This document shows positions 37,767 to 44,761 of a stretch of 49,082 nt of DNA, piece by piece. The position numbers and the translations under genes are program-made. This stretch comes from Bacteroidota bacterium. Lineage in GTDB: Bacteria; Bacteroidota; Bacteroidia; UKL13-3. The DNA lies in NCBI GenBank assembly GCA_947485745.1, contig CANKQY010000008.1, positions 1 through 49,082 on the forward strand. The letters run 5' to 3'. Below the pieces are notes generated by a model, which had not been told where the DNA came from, did not search any database, and saw only the letters and a program-made list of their open reading frames with translations. Within the stretch, counting starts at the first letter, position 1; every line of letters begins with the position of its first letter.

Positions 37767-39026
37767 TTAGGTTTTTTGTTTTTTCTTTTGGGCCGAAGGA
37801 AACAAAACATTGTTCAAAATGAGTCGGTAACCCGGTGAGTTTGGATGTAAACTTAAATCAGTTGGTGGCTCTCCTACTTGATGCTGGTAATCCTCTGGAT
37901 CATGGCCACCGTAAAAAGTCCAGGTGCCTTTGCCCGCAGTTCCATGAATATACCGTGCTTCATTGAGTGATTTGTTATCTCCCAAAATGAGCACATCACT
38001 TTTGATAAACGCCTTTCGAAATGCGGTGGTTTGACCCCAAAAACCTTTTACTGTACTGGTATGATTTTGATTGAGCATTGCAGGAACCATATCCCATTTA
38101 GCGCTAAATTCAAATAAGGAAAATACATCATTGTCTTCTGAAACTGGCCTGGTGCCTTGCATTGCGTCGATATAGCTGTGCTCATAAATCATGGGGTCGT
38201 AATACAATTTATAGTCTTTAAAAGCGAACCCTTTACCAAAATCTAGCTTTTTATCGCCAGCCCAATCGGCAGGATCTCCATCAAAAACTTGCTCACAAAT
38301 ATCAACACCATCTGCCGCTAAAGCAATATCGTAGGTATCTGTGGCACTGCACATGGCAAACATAAATCCGCCACCAAAAACATAATCTCTGATCTTTTTT
38401 GCCACGGCTAATTTTAGCTCCGAGACTTTGGAGAATCCATGTTTGGCGGCCATTGATTCATTTTCTCTTACTTCGGCTTGGTACCAAGCCGCATTCGCAA
38501 AACTAGAATAAAACTTACCAAATTGGCCTGTAAAATCTTCATGGTGCACATGAAGCCAATCATATAAACTTAGCTTTCCATTAAGCACTTCATCATCATA
38601 AACAACTTCATAAGGAATCTCTGCATAGGTAAGCACCAAAGTAACTGCATCGTCCCAGGGTTGTTTTGTTTTAGGAGAATATACTGCAATTTTTGGAGCC
38701 TTTAGTAAACGTACCATTTCTTTGTTTACCTCGGGAGCAGCTATTTCCATTAATATTTCTGTTACCTGCCCTTCACTAATAATATCATAAGTAACCCCTC
38801 TTATCTTACATTCGTTTTCGAGAAATTCATTGTACATAAACATAAAGCTACCACCTTTGTAATTGAGCAGCCAATTAACCTCAAGGTCTTTTTTTAGCAC
38901 CCAATAAGAAATTCCATAAGCCTTTAAATGATTCTTTTGTTCCTCATCCATTGGTATAAGTATACGGGTACAAAAGGCACTGTTTGAACCTAAAATTAAT
39001 GCAAATAAAAATAATAGCTTTTTCAT
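37767..39026 (-). CDS. Exported protein of the group labelled 'asparagine synthetase B' in Bacteroidota
   Basis: A 419-residue protein with a signal peptide (residues 1-19). Relatives in Bacteroidota carry the label asparagine synthetase B, but none of the marks of that cytoplasmic enzyme are present: there is no N-terminal Cys-Gly and no PP-loop SGGxDS. Instead there is a nucleophile-elbow-like GGGFMFAMCSATDTYDIA (about residues 215-232) and a late FYGGHDPEDYQHQVGEPP, reminiscent of class I amidotransferase folds with Cys and His. The real activity is unknown. It lies 27 bases downstream of the DUF2520 gene and is probably cotranscribed with it. Confidence 0.72.
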   Translation of the reverse strand: MKKLLFLFALILGSNSAFCTRILIPMDEEQKNHLKAYGISYWVLKKDLEVNWLLNYKGGSFMFMYNEFLENECKIRGVTYDIISEGQVTEILMEIAAPEVNKEMVRLLKAPKIAVYSPKTKQPWDDAVTLVLTYAEIPYEVVYDDEVLNGKLSLYDWLHVHHEDFTGQFGKFYSSFANAAWYQAEVRENESMAAKHGFSKVSELKLAVAKKIRDYVFGGGFMFAMCSATDTYDIALAADGVDICEQVFDGDPADWAGDKKLDFGKGFAFKDYKLYYDPMIYEHSYIDAMQGTRPVSEDNDVFSLFEFSAKWDMVPAMLNQNHTSTVKGFWGQTTAFRKAFIKSDVLILGDNKSLNEARYIHGTAGKGTWTFYGGHDPEDYQHQVGEPPTDLSLHPNSPGYRLILNNVLFPSAQKKKQKT

Positions 39027-39053: not shown

Positions 39054-39815
39054 TTAGGATTTATTTTGTAAAATACTTTCACTTAATTGTCTGTAAATGC
39101 TTAATAAGCTTGGGTAATTGGCTAATAATTCTTGGTGTTTTTGCACGGTTCCTATATCATTTCTTAAGGCTGGCCCTGTTTGCGCCAAGCTTGGACTTAA
39201 TATTTCAAGTTTGGAAACAGTTTCATGAATTAAGGGTTTAAGAATCTCAAAAGGCAAATCATTTTCTTCTAAGAATTTTTGTGCCAATACAAATAAATGG
39301 TTGCTGAAATTATTAACTAAAACAGCAGATAGGTGTAATTGTTGCCTTTGAATTTCACTCACAAAGATTGTTTTTGCACCAATTTTATCAGAGAGAAACT
39401 CCAAAATCCTCAAATCGTTAGCATCTTTTGATTCAATACAAATGGGGTTATTGGAAAAATTAGCATAATAATTATTGCTAAAAGTTTGAATAGGCCAAAA
39501 AACACCTGTTTGCTTGTGTTTATTTAATACCGATAATGATTCCATTCCAGAGCAATGCACCACAATTCCGTTCACCTCAATTTGATTAGAAACCTCCTCA
39601 ATAGATTGGTCGGAAACGGCAAGAATATAAACGTCGCAATCGCTTGGAATTATAGCCAAATTATCCACACAAGGAATATTAAACAATGCTGAGAATTCTT
39701 TGGCATGACTTAAGGTTTTTGAATAAACACCCTTTAATTCAATACCATTATTAATTAACGCATTGGCTAAATTTTTAGCCAATTTACCAGTACCAATTAT
39801 AAAAACACTAAACAC
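39054..39815 (-). CDS. Rossmann-fold DUF2520 oxidoreductase-like protein
   Basis: A 253-residue protein whose N-terminus FSVFIIGTGKLAKNLANAL is a dinucleotide-binding GxGxxA-like turn. The middle IYILAVSDQSIEEVSNQI is typical of ProC/F420-dependent reductase-like folds. The C-terminal DUF2520 helix bundle includes VLVNNFSNHLFVLAQKFLEE and the closing AQTGPALRNDIGTVQKH. The substrate is unknown. It starts with GTG at 39815, supported by a -7 box 22 bases upstream, and is followed closely by the periplasmic amidotransferase-like gene. Confidence 0.85.
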   Translation of the reverse strand: MFSVFIIGTGKLAKNLANALINNGIELKGVYSKTLSHAKEFSALFNIPCVDNLAIIPSDCDVYILAVSDQSIEEVSNQIEVNGIVVHCSGMESLSVLNKHKQTGVFWPIQTFSNNYYANFSNNPICIESKDANDLRILEFLSDKIGAKTIFVSEIQRQQLHLSAVLVNNFSNHLFVLAQKFLEENDLPFEILKPLIHETVSKLEILSPSLAQTGPALRNDIGTVQKHQELLANYPSLLSIYRQLSESILQNKS

Positions 39816-39845: not shown

Positions 39846-39952
39846 ATTAAAATATAAATCAAGTTTCATTTAAAAGAAAGATTAAAAATTTGATGTATTT
39901 GATTTTTATTTTCTCATTAAATCGATATTTTAGCAGCTTAGTAATTACAAAC

Positions 39953-40603
39953 ATGAAAAAACTACTACTTTTATCCTATTTAGTTATTGGTCTTGGCCAA
40001 ATATTAAGGGCTCAAACTGCTGACCACAAATGGGCTTTGGGGCTTAATTTTGGAATTTCTGAATACTGTGGCGATTTAGGTAATGGTTTTTTAAAATTTG
40101 ACTTAGGATCAAATAGAATTTATACAAACAATAAAATCACAACTACTAATAGCAAACCTGGTTATGTGGGATTAAATGCTTCGAGGTATTTAAATACCCG
40201 TTTTGACTTGAACATGTCATTACTAAGAGGGGAAGAAGGATACTTTAGAAATATAGATTATTATTACAATGCTAAATTTACTTATGCAGATGTTACTGCT
40301 CGTTGGAAATTTATGGCAAAGGATAATGCTAAATTTACGCCTTATTTTATGACTGGAATTGGAACCAGGTACACAGAATACAATAGTGGAAATGATTTTA
40401 ATAAAGATGGAGCCTTAGATCTTGTAATTCCTTTAGGAATTGGTATGAATATAAAATGTGAGGAAAGATTTTATATCAATATTCAATCCTATTATGGTTG
40501 GACGAATGGAGACAAGGTAGAAGGTTTAGCAAAATACACCAGATTTTCTTATGATCAGTTATGGCATCATTCTGTAGGAGTAAGTTTTTTATTGGGTAAA
40601 TAA
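39953..40603 (+). CDS. Outer membrane beta-barrel-like protein
   Basis: A 216-residue exported protein. I use the ATG at 39953, where the signal peptide MKKLLLLSYLVIGLGQ begins; the frame extends to 39890 with an unlikely N-terminus. The mature part alternates hydrophobic and polar residues in strands, for example YVGLNASRYLNTRFDLNMSLL and FTPYFMTGIGTRYTEY, and ends in a hydrophobic strand (HSVGVSFLLGK). This suggests an 8-strand barrel such as an OmpA/OmpW-like porin domain, but no family is recognised. Monocistronic. Confidence 0.7.
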   Translation: MKKLLLLSYLVIGLGQILRAQTADHKWALGLNFGISEYCGDLGNGFLKFDLGSNRIYTNNKITTTNSKPGYVGLNASRYLNTRFDLNMSLLRGEEGYFRNIDYYYNAKFTYADVTARWKFMAKDNAKFTPYFMTGIGTRYTEYNSGNDFNKDGALDLVIPLGIGMNIKCEERFYINIQSYYGWTNGDKVEGLAKYTRFSYDQLWHHSVGVSFLLGK

Positions 40604-40681: not shown

Positions 40682-41533
40682 TCATCTCAATATTATTTGC
40701 TCTTGTGTTAAAGCATAACCAGTAAATGAGCCAATGGCGCCGGTAACATTAGATTTTACTGATACGGGTGTTGCAAACGGTCCGCCGTTATTAGCTGCGT
40801 TTCTAAACGAATCCCAAAAGAGGTATTCTGGTCTCCCAATTTGTGATAGGTAAATATTTACGGTATCGCCGTATTTAAACGGATTGAGCATTAAAAATGG
40901 TCGAGGTTGGTTATTGATTAAGGCATCATCAAAAGAATAGAATCTATCGCCATAACCCCAACCAGAAAGAAAAGGAATAAATCCTCTTTTAAGCACCACT
41001 CTATAATTATTTTGTTCTGGGCCATCTTGCCATTGAAGGTAAAAATATGCGTTGGTATCTTTATTATTTGGTTCGAACCAATAATGCATGCTATCTATTA
41101 CTACTGGTTTTGGAATAAAGGTTTTACTAGTAATTTTTCTACCATCTACTAGCTCAACATCAAGCTTGTAGGGCGTTTCGACCTTTCCAGTAAATAATGG
41201 ATTCACATAAATGCCAGGGAAAAGAGAATCCACTAAATCAAAAAATTGGGTTTGATTGGCAATATTATAAATGGTATCGTTTCCTACAATGTTTCCTTCT
41301 GTTATAAAAACTTTGGCATTTCGCACAGCTAAAAGGCTCAAACTGGGGTTGAAATAATCCATGGTTTTTGATAAAATAACATAGTTCAATGTGGACGAAA
41401 GTTGATTGATGGATGCCTCCACCACTAACTCCTCTTTTGAAGCAGGAATATTAATTTTAATTTCTTTCTCACAAGCTGCCAATTGTAGGGTTGCTATAAA
41501 AAGAATCACATATTTAATTATTGCTTTTTTCAT
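40682..41533 (-). CDS. DUF4249 lipoprotein, partner of the TonB receptor
   Basis: A 283-residue lipoprotein with lipobox LAAC (Cys near residue 21). The start is at 41533; the frame to 41572 would overlap the receptor gene. The N-terminal ELVVEASINQLSSTLNYVILSKTMDYFNPS and the following NAKVFITEG are characteristic of DUF4249 proteins, which in Bacteroidota are nearly always beside a TonB-dependent receptor. It begins four bases after the receptor stop. By analogy with SusD it may sit on the receptor at the surface, but its ligand is not known. Confidence 0.85.
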   Translation of the reverse strand: MKKAIIKYVILFIATLQLAACEKEIKINIPASKEELVVEASINQLSSTLNYVILSKTMDYFNPSLSLLAVRNAKVFITEGNIVGNDTIYNIANQTQFFDLVDSLFPGIYVNPLFTGKVETPYKLDVELVDGRKITSKTFIPKPVVIDSMHYWFEPNNKDTNAYFYLQWQDGPEQNNYRVVLKRGFIPFLSGWGYGDRFYSFDDALINNQPRPFLMLNPFKYGDTVNIYLSQIGRPEYLFWDSFRNAANNGGPFATPVSVKSNVTGAIGSFTGYALTQEQIILR

Positions 41534-41537
41534 GAAT

Positions 41538-43922
41538 TTAGAATTTAAAATTCCATTGAACAGATGGAACAATTGGAAACAAATAAACCATGTATGCTTT
41601 TACGGTTTGGCTTTTTATATCTGGTAAAAAATAAATGAAATAAGGATTTGCTCTATTATAAACATTGTAAATACTAAAATTCCAAGAGCTCTCAAATTTC
41701 TTAGTTTGAATTTGATTATACGTAAATGACAAGTCGGCACGGTGGTAAGCTGGTAACCTAAAAGAATTAATAGAAGAATACTTATCTATGAAAATATAAT
41801 CTGGCTCACCGGTAACAGGATCGATGCCATATCTGTAGGCGTATCTCGAATCTGGCAAGGTTGTCGCATTGCCCGTTCCATAAACGAATACAACATTCCC
41901 AGCCCATTTCTTGTTAATTTGAAAGCTGATTAAAACTGACATATCATGTGTTCTATCATACCTAAAATAAAAGGGTTTGCCTTCATTTAATTCATCAAAC
42001 TGTCTGGTACTTTTGCTCCAAGTATAGCCTACCCAACCTGTAAATTTACCTGTTTTCTTTTTTAGAAATAACTCCAAGCCATAACTTGTTCCTTGTCCAA
42101 AAACCATTTCATTTTCTAAATTTTGATTAAAAAACAAGGAAGCACCTGGCTTAAATTCAATTTGATTTCTCATGGGCTTATAGTATGCTTCTGCCGAAGT
42201 TTCATAAGCATTCTCTCTAAAGTTTCTAAAATAACCAATAGCATATTGCCTTGCCATTTGAGGTTTTACTAACTTACTACTTGGTACCCATAAATCAACA
42301 GGAAATTGAGCCCCTGAGGTGGTTGCTAAGTGCAAGAATTGATAGGTTTGTGTATAGGATGACTTGATACTAGAATTTTCATTGATGAGGTAATTACAAT
42401 TAAATCTTGGCTCTAACCTCGGGTAAAATGAAATAGTTTCGTTTCGTCCGTATGAGAAAGACTTTCCAGTAGGTAGTTGAGTGTCGTTGTCGTATTCTTG
42501 CTGAGTGTATGGCCCAACCAATTGAAAGGCAACCAACCTCAAACCATAATTAACAGACCACCTATTATTGATTTTCCATTCATCTAATGCGTAAGCAGCA
42601 TATTCATGCGCATATTGTTTATTGATGGTTTCAGTAATTTTGGTTGAACCAATATTTCCAGCTAAAATACCAGGTTGAAAGGTATGGAAGGTATAATTGA
42701 AGCCAAATTTAATCTGATGTTTGTCGTTAGGGTAATAGGTAAAATCGTTTTTAAGATTCCAGTCCAATAGGTTGCTTCTTACATTGAATCCTCCTGCGCC
42801 AAACTTAAAATCATTGAACAATTCATACCTATTAAAAATGATACTGGTATTGCTAAAAAGTTTAGTATTAAAAATATGGTTCCACCTCAAAGTGGCAGTG
42901 CTATTACCCCAACCAAAATTGAAATTAACAGTGCTATTGGTTCGACTTTTGTAATCAAGAATATCTCTTCCAAAGTAACCAGAAACATATATTCGGTCTT
43001 TGGGACTTAGGATAAAATTTAATTTCAGGTTTACATCATAGAAGTAATAGCTATTTCCTTTTATTTCATCGGGCAAAAAGGGCCTCGCAAAAACATCAAT
43101 ATAGGTTCTTCTACCAGAAACAAGAAAGCTGCTTTTCCCTTTATTTATAGGACCTTCAGCAGATAATCGGGAGGAGATTAAACCAATACCTCCACTGTAT
43201 TTAAACTGTTGGTTGTTTCCTTCTCTCATGTTTACGTTTAAGATAGAAGACAAACGACCCCCATAATTGGCAGGCATCCCACCTTTGATAATTTCTATGT
43301 TTTTTACTGCATCGGAGTTAAAAACGGATAAGAAACCAAACAAATGAGAGGGATTATAAACCACAGCTTCATCCATGAGAATTAGGTTTTGGTCAGGGCC
43401 TCCGCCTCTCACATAAAAACCCGTACTGGCCTCGCCTCCACTTTTTATGCCTGGCAGCAAGGTTATTGCTTTTAACACATCTGGTTCGCCAAAAACAACT
43501 GGTAGTGATTTAATTTTTTCGCCACTCAATTCAATTCTGCCCATTTCTGTGCTTTTTACATTTCTATCATTTCGTTCCCCAATTATTACTACCTCTTTGC
43601 TTTCTCTTTCTTTTGGCGATAAGGCAAATTGAATATTTTCATTTATCTCTTTCTTTAAAAGAAATCTTTTCGGATTATAACCAACATACGAGCATATAAT
43701 TGGTATTTTAGGATTAGAAATTGATAGAGAAAAAAAACCATAAACATTGGTAACAGTTCCATGCAATCCATCTTCAGTTCTAATGGAAGCCCCAATAAGG
43801 GTTTCTCCGGTTAAACTATCTTTTGCATAGCCACTAATACTAGCTTTCTGGGCTAATGTAAAGTTTGCAAAGGAAGGAATAATGAAACCAATACAAATTA
43901 AAATTGTTCTGAAAAACATCAT
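41538..43922 (-). CDS. TonB-dependent outer membrane receptor
   Basis: A 794-residue outer membrane transporter. The signal peptide is at 1-24. A carboxypeptidase-regulatory-like domain (about 27-110) has ISGYAKDSLTGETLIGASI. The plug domain (about 120-230) includes SGGEASTGFYVRGGGPDQNLILMDEAVVYNPSHLFG in family order, and a beta-barrel occupies the rest, ending VPSVQWNFKF with the terminal aromatic. It lacks the full SusC length of about 1000 residues and no SusD follows; a DUF4249 lipoprotein does. The substrate is unknown. It starts with two adjacent ATG codons. Confidence 0.93.
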   Translation of the reverse strand: MMFFRTILICIGFIIPSFANFTLAQKASISGYAKDSLTGETLIGASIRTEDGLHGTVTNVYGFFSLSISNPKIPIICSYVGYNPKRFLLKKEINENIQFALSPKERESKEVVIIGERNDRNVKSTEMGRIELSGEKIKSLPVVFGEPDVLKAITLLPGIKSGGEASTGFYVRGGGPDQNLILMDEAVVYNPSHLFGFLSVFNSDAVKNIEIIKGGMPANYGGRLSSILNVNMREGNNQQFKYSGGIGLISSRLSAEGPINKGKSSFLVSGRRTYIDVFARPFLPDEIKGNSYYFYDVNLKLNFILSPKDRIYVSGYFGRDILDYKSRTNSTVNFNFGWGNSTATLRWNHIFNTKLFSNTSIIFNRYELFNDFKFGAGGFNVRSNLLDWNLKNDFTYYPNDKHQIKFGFNYTFHTFQPGILAGNIGSTKITETINKQYAHEYAAYALDEWKINNRWSVNYGLRLVAFQLVGPYTQQEYDNDTQLPTGKSFSYGRNETISFYPRLEPRFNCNYLINENSSIKSSYTQTYQFLHLATTSGAQFPVDLWVPSSKLVKPQMARQYAIGYFRNFRENAYETSAEAYYKPMRNQIEFKPGASLFFNQNLENEMVFGQGTSYGLELFLKKKTGKFTGWVGYTWSKSTRQFDELNEGKPFYFRYDRTHDMSVLISFQINKKWAGNVVFVYGTGNATTLPDSRYAYRYGIDPVTGEPDYIFIDKYSSINSFRLPAYHRADLSFTYNQIQTKKFESSWNFSIYNVYNRANPYFIYFLPDIKSQTVKAYMVYLFPIVPSVQWNFKF

Positions 43923-43990: not shown

Positions 43991-44761
43991 CTAATTGTCT
44001 GCTGTTTTGCTTTTGCTAAATATACTCTTAAGCTTAACAGCAGGCACCCATATTTTAGAGAGAAAATACTTGAATGGCGAATCTTTTTTAACATGCCAAA
44101 CGGTTGTTCTGCTTGCTTCTTTATGGTCGTTATGAATGCTATAGGCATAAGCTGCAATGGAGGTTCTGGCCTTACCTTCTGGAAAATTGATAGGATCATA
44201 CCCATGTAAAGTATAGCTTCTACAATGCATGATTGCTAATCTATTAAAAGGCACGTCTACTTCAGTTTTTACACCTGTTCTGCCGTCTTCTAATTTTAAT
44301 TCGCCACCATGTTCTTTCTTCCAATCTTTATTAATATATAACAATAAATTGAGGTTTCTGAACCAATTTTCTTTGAGAGGATGGTAATTGAAATCGGCAT
44401 GCATATCTAGGAAGCTGCCATTTCTTCCTTGGTGAATTCCACCACCATAAAAAGTAGGGTCAATAAAAACATCTTCATTAGTAATATAGCTAATCAATTC
44501 GCCAAACTTTGGGTTATTAAAATCTTCATGAAGTTCCATAAATAATCCGCCTAACTCATAATATTTGCTCTTCTCAAATTTGTTTTTGGCAAAAACATAA
44601 TCTGCACTAGGCGTATCAATTTTTGGAATTTGATTGTATAGCTCAGTTAATTTAGCCTCATCACAAATTTGATCAATTCCTATGTGAGGAAATGGTTGAG
44701 CAGTTAAAAACTCATTTCTAAACCTTTCTTTATTTGCTTCTAAATAGCCAAAATCAATCAT
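43991..44761 (-). CDS. 2-oxoglutarate/Fe(II) dioxygenase (prolyl hydroxylase-like)
   Basis: A 256-residue oxygenase. Iron ligands are H121 and D123 in LDMHADFNYHP and H186 in YTLHGYDP, with R199 in KARTSIAAYAY for 2-oxoglutarate; the HxD...H...R spacing is complete. NLNLLLYINKDWKKEHGGELKL is the usual P4H-type core strand. It may hydroxylate a protein or a small molecule. It lies 11 bases after the HtrA gene and probably shares its transcript. The end is clear at TAA 43991. Confidence 0.9.
   Translation of the reverse strand: MIDFGYLEANKERFRNEFLTAQPFPHIGIDQICDEAKLTELYNQIPKIDTPSADYVFAKNKFEKSKYYELGGLFMELHEDFNNPKFGELISYITNEDVFIDPTFYGGGIHQGRNGSFLDMHADFNYHPLKENWFRNLNLLLYINKDWKKEHGGELKLEDGRTGVKTEVDVPFNRLAIMHCRSYTLHGYDPINFPEGKARTSIAAYAYSIHNDHKEASRTTVWHVKKDSPFKYFLSKIWVPAVKLKSIFSKSKTADN

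Follow-up and report, generated by a model that had tools for sequence, protein, structure and literature searches.

A conserved and presumably exported Bacteroidota protein with a predicted class I amidotransferase/ThuA-like fold: a candidate thiol enzyme, and not an asparagine synthetase

Class I glutamine amidotransferases (GATases) are characterised by the motifs GxCxG and HPE, the catalytic histidine being followed by an acid two residues on (HxE). In enzymes such as PdxT (2nv0, 2iss), PurQ (3d54) and PuuD (6vtv), the cysteine sits at a strand-helix elbow and the histidine comes after the last strand. ThuA proteins (PF06283; ThuA-like structures 1t0b, 4jqs/4pxy, 4e5v) have an elbow of the form GGG..G-x-H-[AS]-A-x-D and a GH motif close to the C-terminus. 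Asparagine synthetase B (AsnB) is a class II (Ntn) enzyme with an N-terminal cysteine, an Asn_synthase domain (PF00733) and a pyrophosphatase loop. The C-terminal, levan-binding domain of BT1761 (8aa2_G), a lipoprotein of the Bacteroidota envelope that is encoded in one glycan locus and contains Ig-like domains, has a ThuA-like fold according to its authors' DALI search (PMC7618045).

The gene studied here lies at positions 37767..39026 on the minus strand of the window, that is, of the whole stretch of 49,082 nucleotides that was analysed; these coordinates include the stop codon, and the open reading frame starts with ATG and encodes 419 amino acids. 'Asparagine synthetase B' is presumably the database name of this family, and the original prediction held that the exported protein could not be one. 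It starts with MKKLLF, and the mature chain would begin near residue 20, a threonine, in accordance with the claim that there is no N-terminal nucleophile cysteine; likewise, the SGGxDS signature of the ATP-pyrophosphatase loop, also claimed to be missing, is absent from the sequence. The model PF00733 gave no match in the window protein at E<=1 and was not found among the 74 family members of our alignment, whereas in a positive control it finds the true AsnB of the same genome. This genuine AsnB-like protein, which starts with MCRIAG and contains SGGIDSS, is encoded on another contig and has no significant similarity to the window protein (best E 0.30). Because it has neither an N-terminal cysteine nor an Asn_synthase domain, the window protein cannot be AsnB; with the SGGxDS loop missing and a separate, real AsnB present, we reject this identity, and the sole likeness between the two is the presumed name. 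If the database name is indeed the presumed one, the protein has been hidden behind a wrong label.

The N-terminus, MKKLLFLFALILGSNSAFC, has the appearance of a signal peptide when judged by eye rather than by a predictor. The putative signal peptide comprises residues 1-19 (38970..39026, minus strand), its boundary being placed at an alanine of the family: a strongly hydrophobic N-terminal stretch is found in 152 and an alanine at position 19 in 121 of the 154 family members (the window protein and 153 relatives), which supports the signal peptide that had been predicted. A lipobox-like string occurs in only one of the 154. From this signal-like N-terminus we infer that the window protein is exported.

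A comparison with family models gave little. The best row for the window protein in Pfam (2025) was Glyco_hydro_78_N at E 0.05, with nothing above cut-off, and NCBIfam (June 2026), searched with the window protein only, gave no match. For the 74 members, Pfam produced weak and mutually unrelated matches (the best being Med20, E 0.0023, in 10 of the 74), and further scans of single members had the same weak outcome; one of the 74 touched BPL_N, presumably a class I GATase-like family, at E 0.18, which is not significant. The ThuA model PF06283 did not match the window protein or any of the 74 members at E<=1. A sequence search of the PDB with the window protein and the 74 members returned no relative and one chance-level row (E 0.11), and we found no dedicated study of the protein in the open-licence PMC literature. 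By these sequence searches, the family is unmatched by Pfam or NCBIfam models; its predicted fold is a known one.

The AlphaFold2 model computed from the 74 sequences (pLDDT 92.5, pTM 0.90) has two domains. An N-terminal alpha/beta domain, residues 20-108 (38703..38969, minus strand), was delimited by the secondary structure of the model and is barely covered by the matches of the structure search VIA; residues 20-109 modelled alone without an alignment reached a pLDDT of 52.6. Residues 109-415 (37782..38702, minus strand) are modelled with a class I GATase-like/ThuA-like fold, as Foldseek and VIA both indicate. Foldseek found 17 PDB matches at E<=0.001, down to E 1e-5, among them 2gk3, 3soz, 8aa2_G and GH42 enzymes; the TM-scores of the GATase-like rows, 0.25-0.37 over the two-domain query, are low, which would be explained by a match to just one of the two domains, but they are not strong by themselves. 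On the VIA scale, where rows within 1 Z are tied and models without a clear match typically have a best Z of 7-8, the top row was the GH42 enzyme 5xb7 (residues 396-613, Z 12.9). It was followed by ThuA-like 1t0b (Z 12.4; 198 residues, 3.5 Å), BT1761 chain 8aa2_G (Z 12.4; 212 residues, 3.6 Å, 15% identity), 4jqs (Z 11.4) and 4e5v (Z 10.8), and the PdxT-type glutaminases reached Z 10.9-11.2, within a range of 10.4-11.2 for the class I GATases named above. An acylase is also among the structures that match the fold, and a library of viral structures contained no useful match. The matching domain of the GH42 enzymes is, we assume, not the catalytic one.

In the model, Cys226 (38349..38351, minus strand) lies in the elbow GGGFMFAMCSATD, with strand 221-225 before it and helix 228-237 after it, which is the position of a nucleophile elbow, and His375 follows strand 367-372 ahead of the last helix. 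The segments FAMCSATDTYD and GGHDPEDYQHQ, which the original prediction had singled out as a possible cysteine elbow and a late histidine, are both present; its further suggestion of an amidotransferase-like fold agrees with the model, which did not show the unrelated fold that would have counted against it and in which Cys226 and His375 occupy the two catalytic positions of such a fold. The histidine is part of GGHDPED, residues 373-379 (37890..37910, minus strand), and a third conserved element, the loop HVHHEDFTGQ, residues 159-168 (38523..38552, minus strand), follows the third strand of the domain; its residues His159, His161, His162, Glu163, Asp164, Phe165, Gly167 and Gln168 are invariant. 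Cys226, His375, Asp376, Pro377, Glu378, Asp126, His159, His161, His162, Glu163, Asp164 and Gln168 never vary in the 154 sequences. Note that 80 of the relatives were collected with the patterns HHEDFTGQ and GYRLILNN; in the other 73, which were collected without motif patterns, the same positions are again invariant (73 of 73, Pro377 being left out of this recount). The conservation of Cys226 and His375 is consequently not due to chance. Moreover, Cys226 is the only invariant cysteine, and in 19 of the 153 relatives it is the single cysteine beyond residue 22; the family consequently has no conserved disulfide, and a free thiol is likely.

How do these motifs compare with the described ones? 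Like the class I GATases, the protein has a cysteine at the strand-helix elbow and a histidine after the last strand, but A-M-C-S-A and GHDPE stand in the place of G-x-C-x-G and HPE, and the acids follow His375 at +1 (Asp376) and +3 (Glu378). It further differs from these enzymes in being presumably exported, and no synthetase partner was seen. With ThuA it shares the fold over residues 109-415, and in a profile alignment to 21 ThuA domains from the phylum, Cys226 falls opposite the elbow histidine in one local match and GGHDPEDY opposite the GH motif in another; both matches are weak (P 0.015 and 0.15 versus 0.47 for a reversed control), yet they hit precisely the two sites of interest. The second one (P 0.15) pairs His192 of the ThuA GH motif with Gly374-His375, itself an invariant pair. 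The elbow residue is a histidine in 21 of 21 aligned ThuA sequences and a cysteine in 154 of 154 here, and in contrast to ThuA the window protein has the HxHHED loop, an extra N-terminal domain and a conserved Lys-rich C-terminus. ThuA was not found in the genome of the window, and is present in 2 of 31 relatives and in 23 of 61 of the phylum. The family thus matches the class I GATases solely in fold and residue placement, and with respect to ThuA it is missed by the family model and lacks the elbow histidine.

The reading that we favour is an exported thiol enzyme of the GATase/ThuA superfamily, probably a hydrolase. The catalysis, its chemistry, the geometry of the pocket and the location of the substrate are conceived as follows. 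Cys226, replacing the elbow histidine of ThuA, would be a free periplasmic thiol acting as nucleophile, with His375 as the activating base assisted by Asp376 or Glu378, in a pocket to whose walls Asp126 and the HxHHED loop may contribute, if the geometry is as the fold suggests. The thiol would attack a carbonyl, of an amide or an ester, in a substrate of the envelope; the protein would then not be a glutamine-dependent synthetase but a hydrolase or transferase of the thiol type. To this full version, i.e. a class I GATase-like protein that has two domains, is exported, whose motifs are closest to ThuA and whose Cys226 serves a thiol hydrolase or transferase acting on an envelope substrate, we assign about an even chance. 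Several points count against it: the TM-scores are low, the profile match to ThuA is weak, GxCxG and HPE are not matched exactly, the fold matches include the levan-binding domain of BT1761 and a GH42 domain, and the many histidines and acidic residues would suit a metal site too. Presumably exported, encoded in the majority of the genomes sampled from the phylum, endowed with a strict Cys/His site and matched by no family model, the protein is a good candidate for an unknown step in the envelope biology of Bacteroidota.

The last of these points leads to a metalloprotein, in which Cys226, His375 and the HxHHED loop would bind zinc or iron, either for catalysis or for metal storage or sensing. 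Potential ligands are numerous and invariant (H159, H161, H162, E163, D164, C226, H375, D376, E378), and the loops that carry them would be expected to face the elbow in this fold. In Bizionia, the transcripts reported to decrease when an iron-linked regulator is mutated include that of 'an asparagine synthetase B' (PMC9478572), which may be a different gene. Against this stands that no recognised metal-binding family was matched, neither by the window protein in Pfam and NCBIfam nor by the members in Pfam, and we consider a metalloprotein unlikely, albeit worth keeping in mind. The fold matches lead to a binding protein, a ThuA-like fold that was recruited as a non-catalytic domain for a glycan or another ligand of the envelope. 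The match of the model to BT1761 at the Z value given above favours this idea, and BT1761 is likewise an envelope protein of Bacteroidota; unlike the window protein, however, it is a lipoprotein with Ig-like domains. Strict conservation of cysteine, histidine and acids in all 154 sequences is more in keeping with an active site than with a surface that binds a ligand, and no gene of sugar utilisation was identified among the recurrent neighbours, so a purely binding role appears quite improbable to us, and a thiol enzyme remains the reading that we prefer.

Of the genomes sampled, 208 of 296 in the phylum (123 of 140 genera) and 223 of 247 in the class encode a homologue, mostly as a single copy. 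The phylum of the draw was taken to be Bacteroidota, to which nearly all of the best 80 of 593 loci belong; these best 80 of 593 confirmed stretches also constitute our set of loci. Identity to the window protein was about 53-83% among the full-length matches listed, with one member of the phylum at 50%. No viral copies were found, and no plasmid copies in the annotated plasmid collection.

A few copies are unusual. Second copies in three genomes, G190, G249 and G186 (L037, L038, L039), are divergent and lack W124/D125 and the YQH after GHDPE; they keep Cys226, His375, the HxHHED loop and the KT end. Genome G294 (L042, about 1500-1640) contains a stray copy of the last codons of the gene; about 900 bp, with antitoxin/PIN-like genes (named by eye), separate it from the intact gene upstream, a layout that would fit the insertion of a small module with duplication of the gene end; the extra C-terminal stretch of about 24 residues was therefore rejected as a second protein and is regarded as a remnant beside a toxin-antitoxin-like insert. 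On contig C53 of G272 (L034, L040, L043), the gene is split into three frame pieces, which represent a decayed copy or sequencing errors, and in G137 and G212 pieces of the gene lie at contig ends.

The distribution was compared with that of the type IX secretion system (T9SS). For this comparison, sprA was scored by SprA_N (PF14349) on the same genome draws as the gene; overlaps were read from listings, the cells for genomes absent from the listings follow from the totals, and the three draws overlap. In the phylum draw (296 genomes), 208 have both genes, none has the gene only, 20 have SprA only and 68 have neither; the corresponding numbers are 220, 3, 19 and 5 in the class draw (247), and 108, 1, 78 and 11 in the order of genome G230 (198), where the gene is often absent. 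The three gene-only genomes of the class (G365, G472, G490) are 95, 56 and 70% complete, the one of the order (G649) is 82% complete, and all have congeners with SprA. Among genera wholly without SprA, 0 of 5, 0 of 4 and 0 of 7 carry the gene (Fisher 1.5e-5, 5.4e-5 and 0.002, kinship being ignored). As a control, the outer-membrane family Porin_10 was scored in the order draw: of its 12 SprA-less genomes, 9 retain Porin_10 (182 of 198 overall) and 1 retains the gene; hence genome decay alone does not explain the pattern. The protein is a widespread and well-conserved one, presumably of the Bacteroidota envelope, and occurs almost only in genomes with the type IX secretion translocon.

From these numbers one could propose an accessory factor of the T9SS, which would process, modify or check the quality of one of its components or cargo proteins in the periplasm. 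The near absence of the gene without sprA, its lack in genera wholly without sprA and the Porin_10 control all argue for such a role. However, sprA genomes without the gene are not rare (20 of 228 in the phylum, 19 of 239 in the class, 78 of 186 in the order), from which it follows that the T9SS does not need the gene, and the gene is not a core part of the system. Moreover, the samples overlap, the Fisher values take no account of kinship, and a single family (f18) seems to supply most of the 68 SprA-less genomes in the phylum draw, 48 of which the listing does not name. The recurrent neighbours that were identified (dnaB, Porin_10, MiaE, PPIase and others) contain no known T9SS gene, and term searches in the main text of two F. 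johnsoniae papers, on the BAM complex and on T9SS and gliding (PMC12611786, PMC12635249), found neither the name nor the word 'amidotransferase'. The link to the T9SS is therefore suggestive only, and we give an accessory function little credence.

Another conserved feature is the C-terminus, which consists of a helix and a Lys-rich tail according to model and alignment. The tail KKKQKT comprises residues 414-419 (37770..37787, minus strand), and Thr419 (37770-37772) is invariant in all 154 sequences and ends the chain in 152 of the 153 relatives. A lysine precedes it in 152 of the 154 sequences and in 150 of the 152 relatives that end at Thr419. In 73 tails, third codon positions vary and conservation ends at the stop codon; since synonymous sites vary, the conservation is at the level of the protein, and a conserved DNA or RNA element behind it was rejected. 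One genus of family f22 runs on past KT in two genomes, L167 (G022) and L200 (G112), with 27 extra residues in G112, which weakens an absolute need for a free C-terminal threonine. A C-terminal fusion in G030, suggested by a 633-aa open frame, was rejected, as the protein stops at KT. T9SS cargo proteins carry a C-terminal sorting domain (Por_Secre_tail and relatives); no Pfam or NCBIfam match to such a domain was found in the window protein. One may combine these features with the preferred thiol chemistry and imagine a phylum-wide periplasmic enzyme, with a cysteine in a ThuA-like site, whose target for processing or modification belongs to the outer-membrane or type IX export machinery and whose conserved Lys-Thr terminus is recognised by a partner. 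We see only a slim chance that all of this holds.

The genomic surroundings were compared in 79 loci: besides the window, these were the 78 loci of the set of 80 in which an ORF had been called for the gene (two had none). Neighbour clusters were those that recur in several loci, with Pfam applied to one representative each of six; dnaB, lpxK, pnp, rlmH and accA were identified by eye. Upstream of the gene and in the same orientation, a DUF2520 oxidoreductase gene lies at a distance of 27 bp (39054..39815, minus strand), and a link to it had been put forward. The two genes are indeed adjacent in the window, yet DUF2520 is near the gene in only 3 of the 79 loci (the window included), i.e. only in close relatives, and was rejected as a conserved context. 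A dnaB gene is found directly upstream in 21 loci, and 22 loci have, no more than four genes away, a Porin_10 gene in the opposite orientation. Other recurrent neighbours depend on the lineage: pnp, LpxK-like, RlmH-like, DUF5606, PPIase, MacB-like and MiaE. Among the recurrent neighbours, none stands out as a functional partner. The gene is more conserved than dnaB in 224 of 231 locus pairs, a comparison that is biased because the loci were chosen by similarity to the gene; accA and PPIase exceed the gene. Beside DUF2520, the window encodes an outer-membrane beta-barrel protein (39890-40603, plus strand) with a sub-threshold PorG match (NF052316, 36 bits, cut-off 130). Farther along, at 40682-43922 on the minus strand, a DUF4249 gene overlaps the end of a gene for a TonB-dependent receptor, a possible uptake pair, and next to this pair, at 43991-44761, a 2OG-Fe(II) oxygenase is encoded.
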